NCBI RefSeq assembly: GCF_000964005.1
Contig: NZ_JXYP01000014.1
Coordinates: 124,001 to 188,000, forward strand
DNA: 64,000 nucleotides
From: Williamsia herbipolensis
Lineage (GTDB): Bacteria > Actinomycetota > Actinomycetes > Mycobacteriales > Mycobacteriaceae
Reading direction: 5' to 3'
Part shown: piece by piece, positions 14,936 to 17,772 of the stretch
Position numbering within the stretch: the first letter of the stretch is position 1
How the letters are laid out: the number at the start of each line of letters is the position of its first letter
Made by a program: the position numbers and the translations under genes
The notes under the pieces: generated by a model
What the model saw: the letters and a program-made list of their open reading frames with translations, nothing else
What the model was told of the DNA's origin: nothing
The model's database searches: none

Positions 14936-15093
14936 GGGTGTGTCCTCCAGGTAAGGGTGTCGAACGGGTGATCGTGACGTCGATCACTCGAAAAGGGACG
15001 TTAGGCTCACGAACTTCAGGTAACGCACCCTTCCGAACAGGTCTGTGAGAAAACACAACAAGCCCGATTTGTCGTGGTGACGAAGGGCTCGTG

Positions 15094-15099
15094 TACATT
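15094..15099 (+). promoter_or_regulatory. -10 box for aromatic leader transcript
   Basis: TACATT ends 7 nt before the GTG of the leader peptide, the same spacing seen at many leaderless genes in this window. No strong -35 box is visible. Confidence 0.6.
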
Positions 15100-15106
15100 C
15101 GCAAAT

Positions 15107-15190
15107 GTGATCACCACCGGCTGCGCCTATTACTGGCGTTTTATCGAGGCTCCGGGTGGAGCCGTCGATGGAGCGCGTCGAGCGACGTAG
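15107..15190 (+). CDS. Aromatic amino acid leader peptide
   Basis: A 27-codon frame, GTG to TAG, reading MITTGCAYYWRFIEAPGG before its Arg/Ala-rich end. It places Tyr-Tyr-Trp-Arg-Phe together, so all three aromatic residues are sensed within five codons. It lies 114 nt before the DAHP synthase start and is followed by a terminator-like hairpin with a T run. This is the layout of ribosome-mediated attenuation. A comparable leader, aroR, has been described before a DAHP synthase gene in Corynebacterium glutamicum. The peptide itself probably has no function; stalled ribosomes on its codons would favour read-through. Confidence 0.82.
   Translation: MITTGCAYYWRFIEAPGGAVDGARRAT
15148..15163 (+). 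promoter_or_regulatory. Leader hairpin / antiterminator strand
   Basis: GGCTCC and GGAGCC (15148-15153 with 15158-15163) form a short hairpin just past the aromatic codons. The same strand (15148-15159) can instead pair almost perfectly, with one bulge, with 15202-15214. The two pairings are mutually exclusive, as expected for an attenuator switch. Confidence 0.6.
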
Positions 15191-15218
15191 CCAGCGAACC
15201 CCCACCCCGGAGCCCCGA

Positions 15219-15246
15219 GCAGTGACCGTCACGGTCGCTGCTTTTT
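15219..15246 (+). terminator. Attenuator (intrinsic terminator) before DAHP synthase
   Basis: A 10-bp stem (15219-15228 with 15232-15241, one G-U pair) with a 3-nt loop is followed by TTTTT at 15242-15246. It stands between the leader peptide stop and the aroG start. A T run after a hairpin is uncommon in the other terminators of this window, which supports a dedicated attenuator. Confidence 0.8.
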
Positions 15247-15304
15247 GTTTGTCGGCGCCGGGGCGGATCGCAACGTGTGCCGTAGTCCACGAAAGGCACA
15301 CCCC

Positions 15305-16411
15305 ATGACCACCGACCTGACCGACATGGCCGCGGAATCGACGTCGGATCGACGTATCCGCGCCTTCCGGCCGATCCCCTCGCCGCACACGTTGCTGGCC
15401 GAACTCCCGTTGACCGACCGTCGTGCGCGACGGGTCGCCGCCGATCGGGCCGAGATCGCCGACATCCTCGCCGGCACCGACGACCGCCTGCTCGTGGTGG
15501 TGGGACCGTGCTCGGTCCATGACCCGGTGGCCGCGCTCGACTACGCGCGGCGGCTGGCCGTGGTGGCCGACACCCACGCCTCGCGTCTGAAGATCGTGAT
15601 GCGGGTGTACTTCGAGAAGCCGCGCACCACGGTCGGATGGAAGGGCCTCATCAACGACCCCGCCATGGACGGCAGCTTCGACATCGAACGCGGGCTCCGG
15701 ACCGCGCGGGCCCTGCTGCTCGACGTCATCGACCTCGGCCTGCCGGTCGGATGCGAGTTCCTCGAGCCCACCAGCCCGCAGTACATCGCCGATGCGGTGT
15801 CGTGGGGCGCCATCGGTGCCCGCACCACCGAATCGCAGGTGCACCGGCAACTCGCCTCGGGTCTGTCGATGCCGATCGGGTTCAAGAACGGCACCGACGG
15901 CGACGTACAGGCCGCAGTCGACGGTGTGAACGCCGCTGCGGCGCAACACGTCTTCTTCGGCGTCGACGACCAGGGTCGAGCGGCGGTGGTCGAGACCGCG
16001 GGCAACGCCGACTGTCACGTCATCCTGCGCGGCGGCCGATCCGGGACCAACTTCGACATCGACTCGGTGCGGGCCGCCGCGGACGTCCTCTCGGCGGCCG
16101 GCAACCCGCCGCGCGTGATGATCGACTGCTCGCACGCCAACTCAGGCAAGGATCACCGTCGTCAGGCCGAGGTGGGCACCGAGGTCGCCGCGATGATCGG
16201 CCGCGGCACACAGGAGGTCTCGGGGATCATGCTCGAGAGCTTCCTCGTCGCCGGTGCCCAGTCGCTCGATCACCGGACACCGGGCGAGCCGCTCGTCTAC
16301 GGGCAGTCGGTGACCGACAAGTGCATGGACTTCGACACCACCGTCGACGTGATCGAGTCGCTGTCGGCAGCGGTCGCGAGAAGGTCCGCGAGCGCGGCGA
16401 TGTCGGCCTGA
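15305..16411 (+). CDS. aroG: 3-deoxy-7-phosphoheptulonate synthase (DAHP synthase), type I
   Basis: This 368-residue enzyme condenses phosphoenolpyruvate with erythrose 4-phosphate, the first step of the shikimate pathway. Type I (AroF/G/H) hallmarks are VVVGPCSVHDP, MRVYFEKPRTTVGWKGLINDP, GARTTESQ, IGFKNGTDGD, ILRGG and MIDCSHANSGKDH, which include the metal and substrate ligands. M. tuberculosis relies on a type II enzyme, so this type I gene is a lineage difference. The ATG at 15305 has GAAAGG about 10 nt before it. Expression is predicted to be controlled by the aromatic leader upstream. Its 3' end overlaps the convergent MocR gene by 115 bp. Confidence 0.95.
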   Translation: MTTDLTDMAAESTSDRRIRAFRPIPSPHTLLAELPLTDRRARRVAADRAEIADILAGTDDRLLVVVGPCSVHDPVAALDYARRLAVVADTHASRLKIVMRVYFEKPRTTVGWKGLINDPAMDGSFDIERGLRTARALLLDVIDLGLPVGCEFLEPTSPQYIADAVSWGAIGARTTESQVHRQLASGLSMPIGFKNGTDGDVQAAVDGVNAAAAQHVFFGVDDQGRAAVVETAGNADCHVILRGGRSGTNFDIDSVRAAADVLSAAGNPPRVMIDCSHANSGKDHRRQAEVGTEVAAMIGRGTQEVSGIMLESFLVAGAQSLDHRTPGEPLVYGQSVTDKCMDFDTTVDVIESLSAAVARRSASAAMSA

Positions 16412-17772
16412 AACCTGTGTTCGGGGGGTGTGGCGAAGCCGACCACGATCCCCCCGGACGGCAGTGGGGTGGCGTCCGGATGTCGGAACCCGTCGAGTCC
16501 CGCGACGACGAACCGGCGCTGTGCCGCGAGCTCCAGAGCCCTCGCCTCGACCGTCGGCGACACGGTGAGCACGGCGTGCAACCCGGCCGACATCCCCGAC
16601 ACCTCCACCCCGCGGGCCTGCATGGTGGCGGTGATGGCGTCTCGCCGCACCCGGTAGTGCGATCGGCTGCGCCGCACGTGGCGGTCGTAGGCACCCGATT
16701 CGATCATGTCGGCGAAGACCATCTGATCGACGATGCTGGCCGTCGCCTCGCGAAGCCCCTTGGCGCGCACCACGTCCGCCAGTATCCGGTCGGGCACCAC
16801 GATCCACCCGATGCGCACGGCCGGCGACAGCGACTTGCCGGCCGAACCGAGGTAGATCACGTCCTCGGGAGCCAGCCCCTGGATCGCGCCGACCGGGTCG
16901 CGGTCGTAGCGCAGCTCCCCGTCGTAGTCGTCCTCGACGATGAGGCCGCCACGCGTACGTGCCCAATCCACGAGGTGGGCCCGCCGGCGGGGGTCGAGTG
17001 CGTGACCGGTGGGGTACTGGTGACTCGGGGTGACGACCACGGCCGTCGCCGCCGATTCCGCGAGTCGGGAGACGTCGAGACCGCCGGCGTCGATCGCGAT
17101 CGGTGTGACCCGGGTGCCGCCGCGTTCGATGACCTCGCGGTGGAACGGCAGGCCATAGCTCTCGACGGCGACGGTGTCACCGAACACAGTGCGCGAGAGC
17201 AGTTCCAACGACTGTGAGACCGATGTGGTGAGCACGATGTGGTGTTCGTCGGTACGCACGCCCCGCACGCGGCCGAGGTATGCCGCCAACGCCTTTCGCG
17301 TCGCGAGATGGCCCTGCGGATCGCCCACCCCGAACGCGGAGTGAGGCGCCGCCTCCACAGCTCGGCGGGTGCTGCGGATCCAGTCGGCGCGGGGGAACAG
17401 TGCCGGCTGGGGCTGGCCGAGTCGGAAGTCGTACGCGGGGACCGCCGGCTGATCGGGGCGGGAGTACGGGGTGGTCGCGACGTGTGTCAGATCGGCGACG
17501 CGGGTGGCCGATCCGACCCGCGCGACCAACCACCCCTCCGCGATCAGCTCCTGGTAGACGCCGGCGACGGTTCCGCGGGCCATCTGCAGGTCAGCGGCGA
17601 GTGAGCGGTAGGGCGGCAGCGTGCTGCCCGGGACGAGACGTCCGTCGGTGATCGCCGCGCGCAGTGCGGCCGCCAGAGCGGTCCGTCGCCCCCGCGAACC
17701 GGGTGCGGACTCGACGTCGAGAATCAGGTCGGCACCCAGCCGTCCGGCCAGATCGGCCCACGAATTCGTCAT
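16297..17772 (-). CDS. MocR/PdxR-type transcriptional regulator (GntR-aminotransferase)
   Basis: A 491-residue MocR regulator. The N-terminal winged helix of the GntR class spans about residues 25-95 (LPPYRSLAADLQMARGTVAGVYQELIAEGWL). The rest is a fold-type I aminotransferase domain with VVVTPSHQYPTG, IVEDDYDGELRYDR and the PLP lysine in YLGSAGKSLSPAVRIGW. Such proteins sense PLP or PLP-amino acid adducts and usually regulate a divergent gene. Here the divergent neighbour is an AhpD-like gene. A -10 box TAGAGT (17781-17786) lies 8 nt before the ATG. The last 38 codons run antisense into the DAHP synthase gene. Confidence 0.9.
   Translation of the reverse strand: MTNSWADLAGRLGADLILDVESAPGSRGRRTALAAALRAAITDGRLVPGSTLPPYRSLAADLQMARGTVAGVYQELIAEGWLVARVGSATRVADLTHVATTPYSRPDQPAVPAYDFRLGQPQPALFPRADWIRSTRRAVEAAPHSAFGVGDPQGHLATRKALAAYLGRVRGVRTDEHHIVLTTSVSQSLELLSRTVFGDTVAVESYGLPFHREVIERGGTRVTPIAIDAGGLDVSRLAESAATAVVVTPSHQYPTGHALDPRRRAHLVDWARTRGGLIVEDDYDGELRYDRDPVGAIQGLAPEDVIYLGSAGKSLSPAVRIGWIVVPDRILADVVRAKGLREATASIVDQMVFADMIESGAYDRHVRRSRSHYRVRRDAITATMQARGVEVSGMSAGLHAVLTVSPTVEARALELAAQRRFVVAGLDGFRHPDATPLPSGGIVVGFATPPEHRFQADIAALADLLATAADSDSITSTVVSKSMHLSVTDCP

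Follow-up and report, generated by a model that had tools for sequence, protein, structure and literature searches.

Upstream of the type I DAHP synthase gene in the window (the whole 64,000-nucleotide stretch of Williamsia herbipolensis DNA analysed here) lies a real and conserved aromatic leader-peptide element, probably a relative of the aroR attenuator with an enlarged amino acid code. The leader ORF itself is confirmed in the sequence. The following parts of the locus are referred to below.

15094-15099, + strand: -10-like box TACATT, by its sequence a putative leader promoter
15107-15190, + strand: leader ORF MITTGCAYYWRFIEAPGGAVDGARRAT, GTG start, 27 codons plus stop TAG (15188-15190), seen in the sequence and kept in relatives
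15128-15142, + strand: sensor codons TAT TAC TGG CGT TTT (Tyr Tyr Trp Arg Phe), from the sequence
15137-15158, + strand: region 1, made of a lower stem arm (15137-15147) and a switching segment GGCUCCGGGUG (15148-15158)
15158-15175, + strand: region 2, which pairs with region 1 in a local hairpin (1:2); conserved pairing
15203-15214, + strand: region 3 CACCCCGGAGCC, the long-range partner of region 1 (1:3); covarying helix
15217-15243, + strand: terminator-like hairpin with tail TTTGTTTGTC, from a consensus scan; both-sided changes at 11 of 11 pairs
15242-15249, + strand: U-rich tract TTTTTGTT, overlapping the last hairpin pairs; from the sequence and the scan
15254-15263, + strand: region 4 GGCGCCGGGG, whose pairing with region 3 (3:4) would enclose the terminator; conserved pairing
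15275-15281, + strand: region 5 GUGUGCC, complement of 15295-15301, a candidate Shine-Dalgarno sequestering arm; by eye
15291-15301, + strand: Shine-Dalgarno-like GAAAGG (15291-15296) and region 6 GGCACAC (15295-15301); by eye
15305-16411, + strand: type I DAHP synthase (aroF type), the candidate regulated gene, ATG at 15305, 368 residues; TIGR00034, PF00793

A preliminary description of this DNA had proposed a leader peptide reading Tyr, Trp and Phe. The ORF is indeed present, opening with GTG ATC ACC ACC GGC TGC GCC followed by TAT TAC TGG CGT TTT, and its aromatic codons are kept in relatives. TACATT is separated from the GTG at 15107 by a spacer of 7 nt, with no -35 match; a consensus scan of 15000-15320 found no two-hexamer promoter. 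The same scan places the hairpin with a T run, also proposed earlier, at 15217-15243 with a T-rich tail, and a second terminator-like site in this interval lies on the - strand (mean 0.3 in shuffles). The 199-nt leader folds with z = -5.63, and none of 200 shuffles is equally stable. The leader stop and the DAHP synthase start are more than 100 nt apart. No Rfam 15 model matched 15050-15310 up to E 5. The sole Rfam family found in the window, the ASdes sRNA family (RF01781; 24044-24111, - strand, 49 bits, above the gathering score), lies away from the leader. A regulator ORF with GntR and aminotransferase domains, which we take to be MocR-like, is convergent with the DAHP synthase gene (16297-17772, - strand), and its coordinates overlap the 3' end of that gene. 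The 7-bp complement over the aroF Shine-Dalgarno sequence varies in step, judged by eye in the window and three other loci (L005, L008, L036), as GUGUGCC/GGCACAC, GAGUGCC/GGCACUC, and GGGUGCC/GGCACCC.

The leader is conserved far outside this genome. All eight genomes of the genus carry the DAHP synthase gene, and all eight upstream regions encode a leader with WRFIEAPGG or WRRFIEAPGG. Type I DAHP synthase is found in 322 of 401 sampled genomes of the family (E 1e-80) and in 25 of 148 genomes of the class (E 1e-60). A strict leader rule asks for an ORF of 10-50 codons, no more than 330 nt upstream, in which some stretch of six residues holds three or more F/Y/W. It is passed at 77 of 83 type I loci, 64 from the family and 19 from the class sample, against 8 of 83 on the reverse strand and 5.6% of dinucleotide shuffles, so that the leader is not a chance occurrence. 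Many of these loci are closely related and thus not independent; the shuffle counts are therefore no probabilities. The six failures are L146, L156, L157, and L159, together with L006 and L152, where the leader is present in weaker form, while L153 passes with what appears to be a chance ORF. 

In a scan of named genomes, which covered 36 of 80 loci, a leader of this family was recognized by eye at 21 of 29 actinobacterial loci. Carriers include Williamsia, Gordonia, Tsukamurella, Dietzia, Mycobacterium, Nocardia, and Rhodococcus, and further Amycolatopsis, Pseudonocardia, Streptomyces, Catellatospora, Glycomyces, Isoptericola, and Kribbella. By eye, the same scan showed no leader in two Nocardiopsis, three Bifidobacteriaceae MAGs, Gardnerella, Gryllotalpicola, and a Streptosporangiales MAG. 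A Streptosporangiaceae MAG (L074) has the core with no stop within 150 nt. When the class was searched with an exact pattern, a single one of 148 genomes matched, the pattern being too strict. The conservation of aromatic codons and stems in relatives, which the preliminary description had asked to see, thus extends well beyond the genera it proposed. Within the genus it is incomplete: L006 keeps Trp and Phe but lacks Tyr. Proteobacterial DAHP synthase genes have aromatic-rich short ORFs of their own upstream at four of six loci examined (L079, L088, L098, and L104, among them a MAG with FYFYFFAF, Xanthomonas with SFYFWYYGF, Bordetella with FYFYFYGF, and Bradyrhizobium with SYFWYFSY); none was seen at Serratia L123 or Pantoea L144.

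The aromatic code differs by branch (YWRF, YFWF, RFYF, and RYPYF). Type A comprises 72 loci picked by a pattern on the YWRF-like core. Type B comprises YFWF-like leaders, with Rhodococcus, Nocardia, and Amycolatopsis among its named members, and type C the RFYF leaders from the small genomes of genus g3, which we infer to be Corynebacterium (L174, lacking the pattern, is left out). The RFYF core occurs in six of seven g3 leaders tested and also in L048, with a TANNNT box close upstream. One locus, L173, appears to belong to a near relative of C. glutamicum, judging by eye from its likeness to primers printed in a section of PMC7356990. These g3 leaders occupy the same place, and the kinship with a Corynebacterium DAHP synthase leader suggested earlier is upheld to that extent. 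The leaderless geometry proposed for the window also recurs: with a spacing of 5-9 nt allowed, every one of the 72 type A loci has a TANNNT box 6-8 nt ahead of the start codon, 63 of them at exactly 7 nt, a pattern that would suit translation from the 5' end. All three amino acids Y, W, and F are encoded in 63 of the 72 type A leaders; W is missing from seven, Y from one, and F from one. The ...APGG... tail is widely conserved and its frame remains open.

Codon choice in the leaders is the reverse of that in the genes behind them. In 71 type A leaders (L074 is dropped from codon and ribosome-masking counts) Tyr is encoded by 79 TAT and 3 TAC, versus 5 TAT and 340 TAC in the DAHP synthase genes, and Phe by 69 TTT and 8 TTC, versus 5 TTT and 603 TTC. 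Ile codons in the leaders match the preference of the genes (91 ATC, 4 ATT). Three genes of the window show the same gene-side bias (TAT 1, TAC 24; TTT 1, TTC 30), and the bias of type B leaders is weaker (TAT 20, TAC 3; TTT 24, TTC 17). The U-ending codons may heighten stalling or may serve the RNA stem. Counted from its first base, the last aromatic codon stands 8 nt ahead of region 1 in 68 of the 72 type A leaders; the other four (spacing 2) are Dietzia-type leaders with an extra Trp after that Phe. Comparison of sequences thus leaves the sensor side of the element well supported.

The preliminary description had also named two mutually exclusive pairings. Both exist and both are conserved, but the coordinates it gave for the local one (15148-15159 with 15148-15163) are garbled. 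The local pairing is 15148-15153/15158-15163, extended by 15137-15147/15165-15175, and the long-range pairing is 15148-15158/15203-15214. RNAalifold, applied to an alignment of 35 loci (A2), picked the long-range 1:3 helix together with the terminator. In a larger alignment (A4), 66 of 92 source loci were fitted to the model and 26 poorly matching ones were left out (type B and seven of eight g3), so that all A4 pairing figures lean towards the model. With this bias, 1:3 and terminator are paired in 97.9% of cells, slid versions reaching at most 51.5%, with both-sided changes at 15 of 20 pairs and a covariation of 0.332 versus 0.131 when shuffled. The 1:3 helix alone is paired in 99.7% of cells with both-sided changes at 4 of 9 pairs. 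For 1:2, 85.1% of cells are paired (slid controls at most 51.0%); both-sided changes occur at 7 of 17 pairs, a level also reached by 122 of 500 shuffles, and the 43 doubly changed cells exceed all 500 shuffles. The 3:4 helix covaries little; 90.9% of its cells are paired, against 62.3% at most in slid controls. Note that 1:2 and 1:3 share region 1 and exclude each other, yet both are kept.

In the type B alignment (A5; 21 loci, L063 and L064 left out), the pairs of 1:2 and the hairpin are 96.4% paired and those of 1:4 are 92.1% paired; these pairs are almost invariant and therefore give no covariation support. Judged by eye, the type B hairpin takes its 5' arm from region 3. The U-run terminator seen in the window is weak or absent upstream of DAHP synthase in many relatives. 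Of the 54 type A loci with a located hairpin, 26 have at least five T in the 9 nt that follow it; the 18 of 72 loci without an exact inverted repeat are dropped from this count. Among the 19 type B hairpins found, only that of L052 has a clear U-run; L064, whose hairpin was missed by the finder, also has a T6 run.

These features suggest a ribosome-mediated attenuation element in which stalling promotes 1:3 and thereby DAHP synthase expression, a reading that we consider likely but well short of settled. RNA polymerase would start at or beside the GTG, and a ribosome would initiate on the 5' end of the transcript and translate the short peptide. Too little charged Tyr-, Trp-, or Phe-tRNA would make this ribosome stall on TAT TAC TGG CGT TTT. 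Folding predicts that its leading edge, at the border of region 1, opens the lower part of the 1:2 hairpin, and that the freed switching segment pairs with region 3 beside the terminator. If the tRNAs are charged, the ribosome would run through and leave, 1:2 could re-form, and transcription would stop at the terminator. Both this polarity and the route from 1:3 to less termination are conjectural; 1:3 ends a few nt from the hairpin and may exert its effect by stacking or by way of the kinetics of folding. The lack of Tyr in L006 and of a two-hexamer promoter count against attenuation, as do the weak T tract in many relatives and the reported indifference of the C. glutamicum operon to Tyr (PMC11802643).

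Folding with masked ribosomes makes position sensing plausible. In 71 type A leaders, predicted 1:3 pairing is 0.64-0.76 when the A-site lies one to four codons ahead of the last aromatic codon, compared with 0.37 without a ribosome (15-nt edge). At the same A-site positions it is 0.69-0.87 in 21 type B leaders (0.61 without a ribosome) and 0.76-0.86 in seven type C leaders (only three of them at the fourth codon; 0.52 without a ribosome). Three codons past the last aromatic codon it falls to 0.01-0.04. On stalling, 1:3 rises by more than 0.1 in 35-42 of the 71 type A leaders and falls in two or three, the rest being little changed. With an 18-nt edge the type A value drops to 0.48 at one codon ahead of the last aromatic codon and to 0.21 when the A-site is on that codon. 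In the window, a 176-nt transcript gives 0.84-0.91 when stalled versus 0.27 without a ribosome, and a 144-nt transcript ending at the U-tract gives 0.93 without a ribosome, 1.0 for Tyr and Trp, 0.63 for Phe, and 0.57 at the stop. A ribosome at the stop gives a type A mean of 0.70 (up in 40, down in 10, n=71). In these models 1:3 separates stall from completion poorly. Since the gain on stalling depends on the length of the window transcript, and the stop gives a similar mean, position sensing is plausible rather than decisive.

The preliminary description held that the region has what ribosome-mediated attenuation needs. The folding does not support this as stated: predicted terminator pairing stays at 0.91-1.0 at every ribosome position in six type A leaders, including that of the window. 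Classical exclusion between terminator and antiterminator is accordingly rejected; no antiterminator overlapping and excluding the terminator was found, neither pairing overlapping its stem. Because the pairings miss that stem and the hairpin persists, simple exclusion does not explain how ribosome position would affect termination.

Other outputs have to be weighed. The switch could act on initiation of aroF translation, with the pairings hiding or exposing the start region and the terminator being secondary, which we think unlikely. It draws its strength from type B, whose hairpins mostly lack a U-run. In the 21 type B loci, by energies computed with no shuffled control, the aroF start region opens by 2.4 kcal/mol when the ribosome stands three codons ahead of the last aromatic codon and by 1.9 kcal/mol at two codons (16 and 17 of the 21 loci become more open, two each more closed); at one codon the opening is 0.5 kcal/mol (13 open, 6 closed). 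On the last aromatic codon, two codons past it, and at the stop, the start region closes by 2.0, 2.4, and 1.05 kcal/mol. The step-wise difference of GUGUGCC/GGCACAC versus GAGUGCC/GGCACUC in the genus of the window (by eye) fits a role for the start region, and a passage of PMC7356990 calls aroR a translational regulatory leader peptide. Type A speaks against it, for the window has a good terminator and stalling causes no consistent change in the start region of 70 loci (two of 72 without a found start are dropped). Mean changes there are -0.31 kcal/mol for Tyr stalls (29 more open, 17 more closed of 80), -0.06 for Trp (25 and 21 of 71), +0.22 for Phe (14 and 32 of 74), and +0.14 at the stop (5 and 11 of 70). 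Even in type B, the 1:4 helix beside the Shine-Dalgarno sequence, which lacks covariation, rises on stalling from 0.23 to 0.30-0.33. A Shine-Dalgarno domino (1:2, 3:4, and 5:6 versus 1:3 and 4:5) in the branch of the window is unsupported over the 70 loci. On these predicted energies a translational output looks tenable for type B (Nocardia/Rhodococcus-type) only, and the output may differ between branches.

The polarity could also be reversed, which strikes us as improbable: a ribosome at the stop would mask region 2, 1:3 would form, stack on the terminator, and favour termination, while a Phe stall would mask region 1 and prevent 1:3. The distance from the end of the leader stop to the CCGGAG core of region 3 is measurable in 62 of 72 type A loci (ten without a recognized region 3 are left out) and amounts to 9-22 nt, so a ribosome at the stop should mask region 2 and not region 3. 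Type A 1:3 is also higher at that stop than the 0.46 predicted once the A-site reaches the last aromatic codon, and the C. glutamicum response is reported, in part of PMC11802643, to follow Phe and not Tyr. Yet mean 1:3 is maximal at earlier aromatic codons in all three types, and in the window it is only 0.37 at the stop, or 0.01 with a wider edge. In type B, where region 3 is the hairpin arm, 1:3 would therefore oppose the hairpin. A conserved small protein or translation-coupling ORF without a sensing role is very improbable. The kept tail and open frame would suit it, but the conserved tail codons are also the stem-forming bases, the aromatic code varies between branches, and the distance from leader stop to DAHP synthase start in the window is long. 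Least credible by far is a chance ORF before a constitutive terminator: only the shuffle background of the leader rule favours it, and the leader-rule counts, start spacing, codon bias, and covariation all contradict it.

A covariance model of the element (R1) matches 19 of 148 genomes of the class, 14 of them directly upstream of type I DAHP synthase, and its only strong match in the window is the element itself (15131-15270, 107.8 bits). In four f17 genomes (L199-L202), the element lies upstream of a different protein; the leader there reads MNRCFAFTEPAPGSRS, MGRYSSFTRPAPGGPVA or a near copy of the latter, or MTCRYAFIEPAPGGPVGG. The three of these proteins that were checked by profile combine a DAHP_synth_1 region, matched weakly, with a chorismate mutase domain; DAHP_synth_1 is below the Pfam cut-off in L201, and the L200 protein is judged by eye. 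Such a fusion is unusual, and its DAHP synthase part is putative. The R1 match at L203 (G458) looks like a chance hit, for no aromatic leader stands where one would be expected, and another matching site lies antisense to a genuine one. No R1 match was obtained in 11 of the 25 class genomes with type I DAHP synthase, though a smaller search did match three of these, L161, L162, and L163. Among g3 loci, five of eight match at E<=0.01; L169 scores 58 bits, and four score 20-27 bits, within the range of antisense artefacts (best 27.0). R1 matched none of 19 type B loci. The idea that the gene in the window senses everything as the sole DAHP synthase fails, because type II DAHP synthase is present in all eight genomes of the genus; it is found in the C. 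glutamicum control as well.

The flux towards every aromatic amino acid, and towards many natural products of actinobacteria, is determined by DAHP synthase. The element is a compact RNA that may read all three end products at once, and its rare U-ending codons keep a constant spacing to the switch; such a design opens combined sensing by a single stalled ribosome to direct test. Sister branches with and without a U-run offer a natural comparison of transcriptional and translational output, and the element is a possible engineering target in Gordonia, Rhodococcus, and relatives. A bolder and quite tentative idea is that of an ancient leaderless three-amino-acid sensor RNA across Actinomycetes, which moves between non-orthologous DAHP synthase genes, carries a branch-specific code, and has switched its output from termination to start-region exposure in the Nocardia/Rhodococcus branch.

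Several known systems invite comparison. The attenuators suggested for gamma-proteobacterial aroF, according to part of PMC2659441, likewise precede a DAHP synthase gene, in another phylum and with a single amino acid; the Shewanella survey there lists aroF as 'Attenuator sensing tyr-tRNA', citing work on E. coli. The trp attenuators of Corynebacterium and Streptomyces share the leader peptide, alternative hairpins, and terminator, and respond to a single amino acid, as covered in sections of PMC1262725. The same sections describe the LEU element before leuA in Actinobacteria, whose leader codons pair over a long range with the Shine-Dalgarno region; it differs in its pseudoknot, its leucine codons, and its gene. 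That 2005 actinobacterial survey reports, in those sections, no conserved structure or attenuator upstream of phenylalanine or tyrosine operons. The S. lividans leaders leuL, trpL, and ilvL are also described as leaderless in excerpts of PMC8079986, where Table 4 lists eight leaders and none for DAHP synthase. In open-access full-text literature, no actinobacterial case outside Corynebacterium stands among the matches listed, and the portions of PMC8079986, PMC4833913, and PMC2965389 at hand describe no such leader there.

The closest system is the aroR attenuator before aroF (cg1129) of C. glutamicum, which like the window has a short aromatic leader peptide before DAHP synthase. Among our own loci, an aromatic leader directly upstream of a type I DAHP synthase related to that of the window occurs in g3. 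It is reported in parts of PMC4046766 and PMC3890552 that a Phe-Tyr-Phe leader precedes C. glutamicum aroF, and in part of PMC11802643 that transcription of the aroF operon rises on stalling within the AroR leader under Phe limitation and that Tyr availability has no effect. In C. glutamicum without (p)ppGpp, attenuated aro genes and their leaders rise under total starvation (PMC6892785, in part), and aroR has been deleted for engineering (PMC7356990, in part). The element of the window probably works like aroR and is probably homologous to it, its code YYWRF adding Trp to the FYF of aroR.
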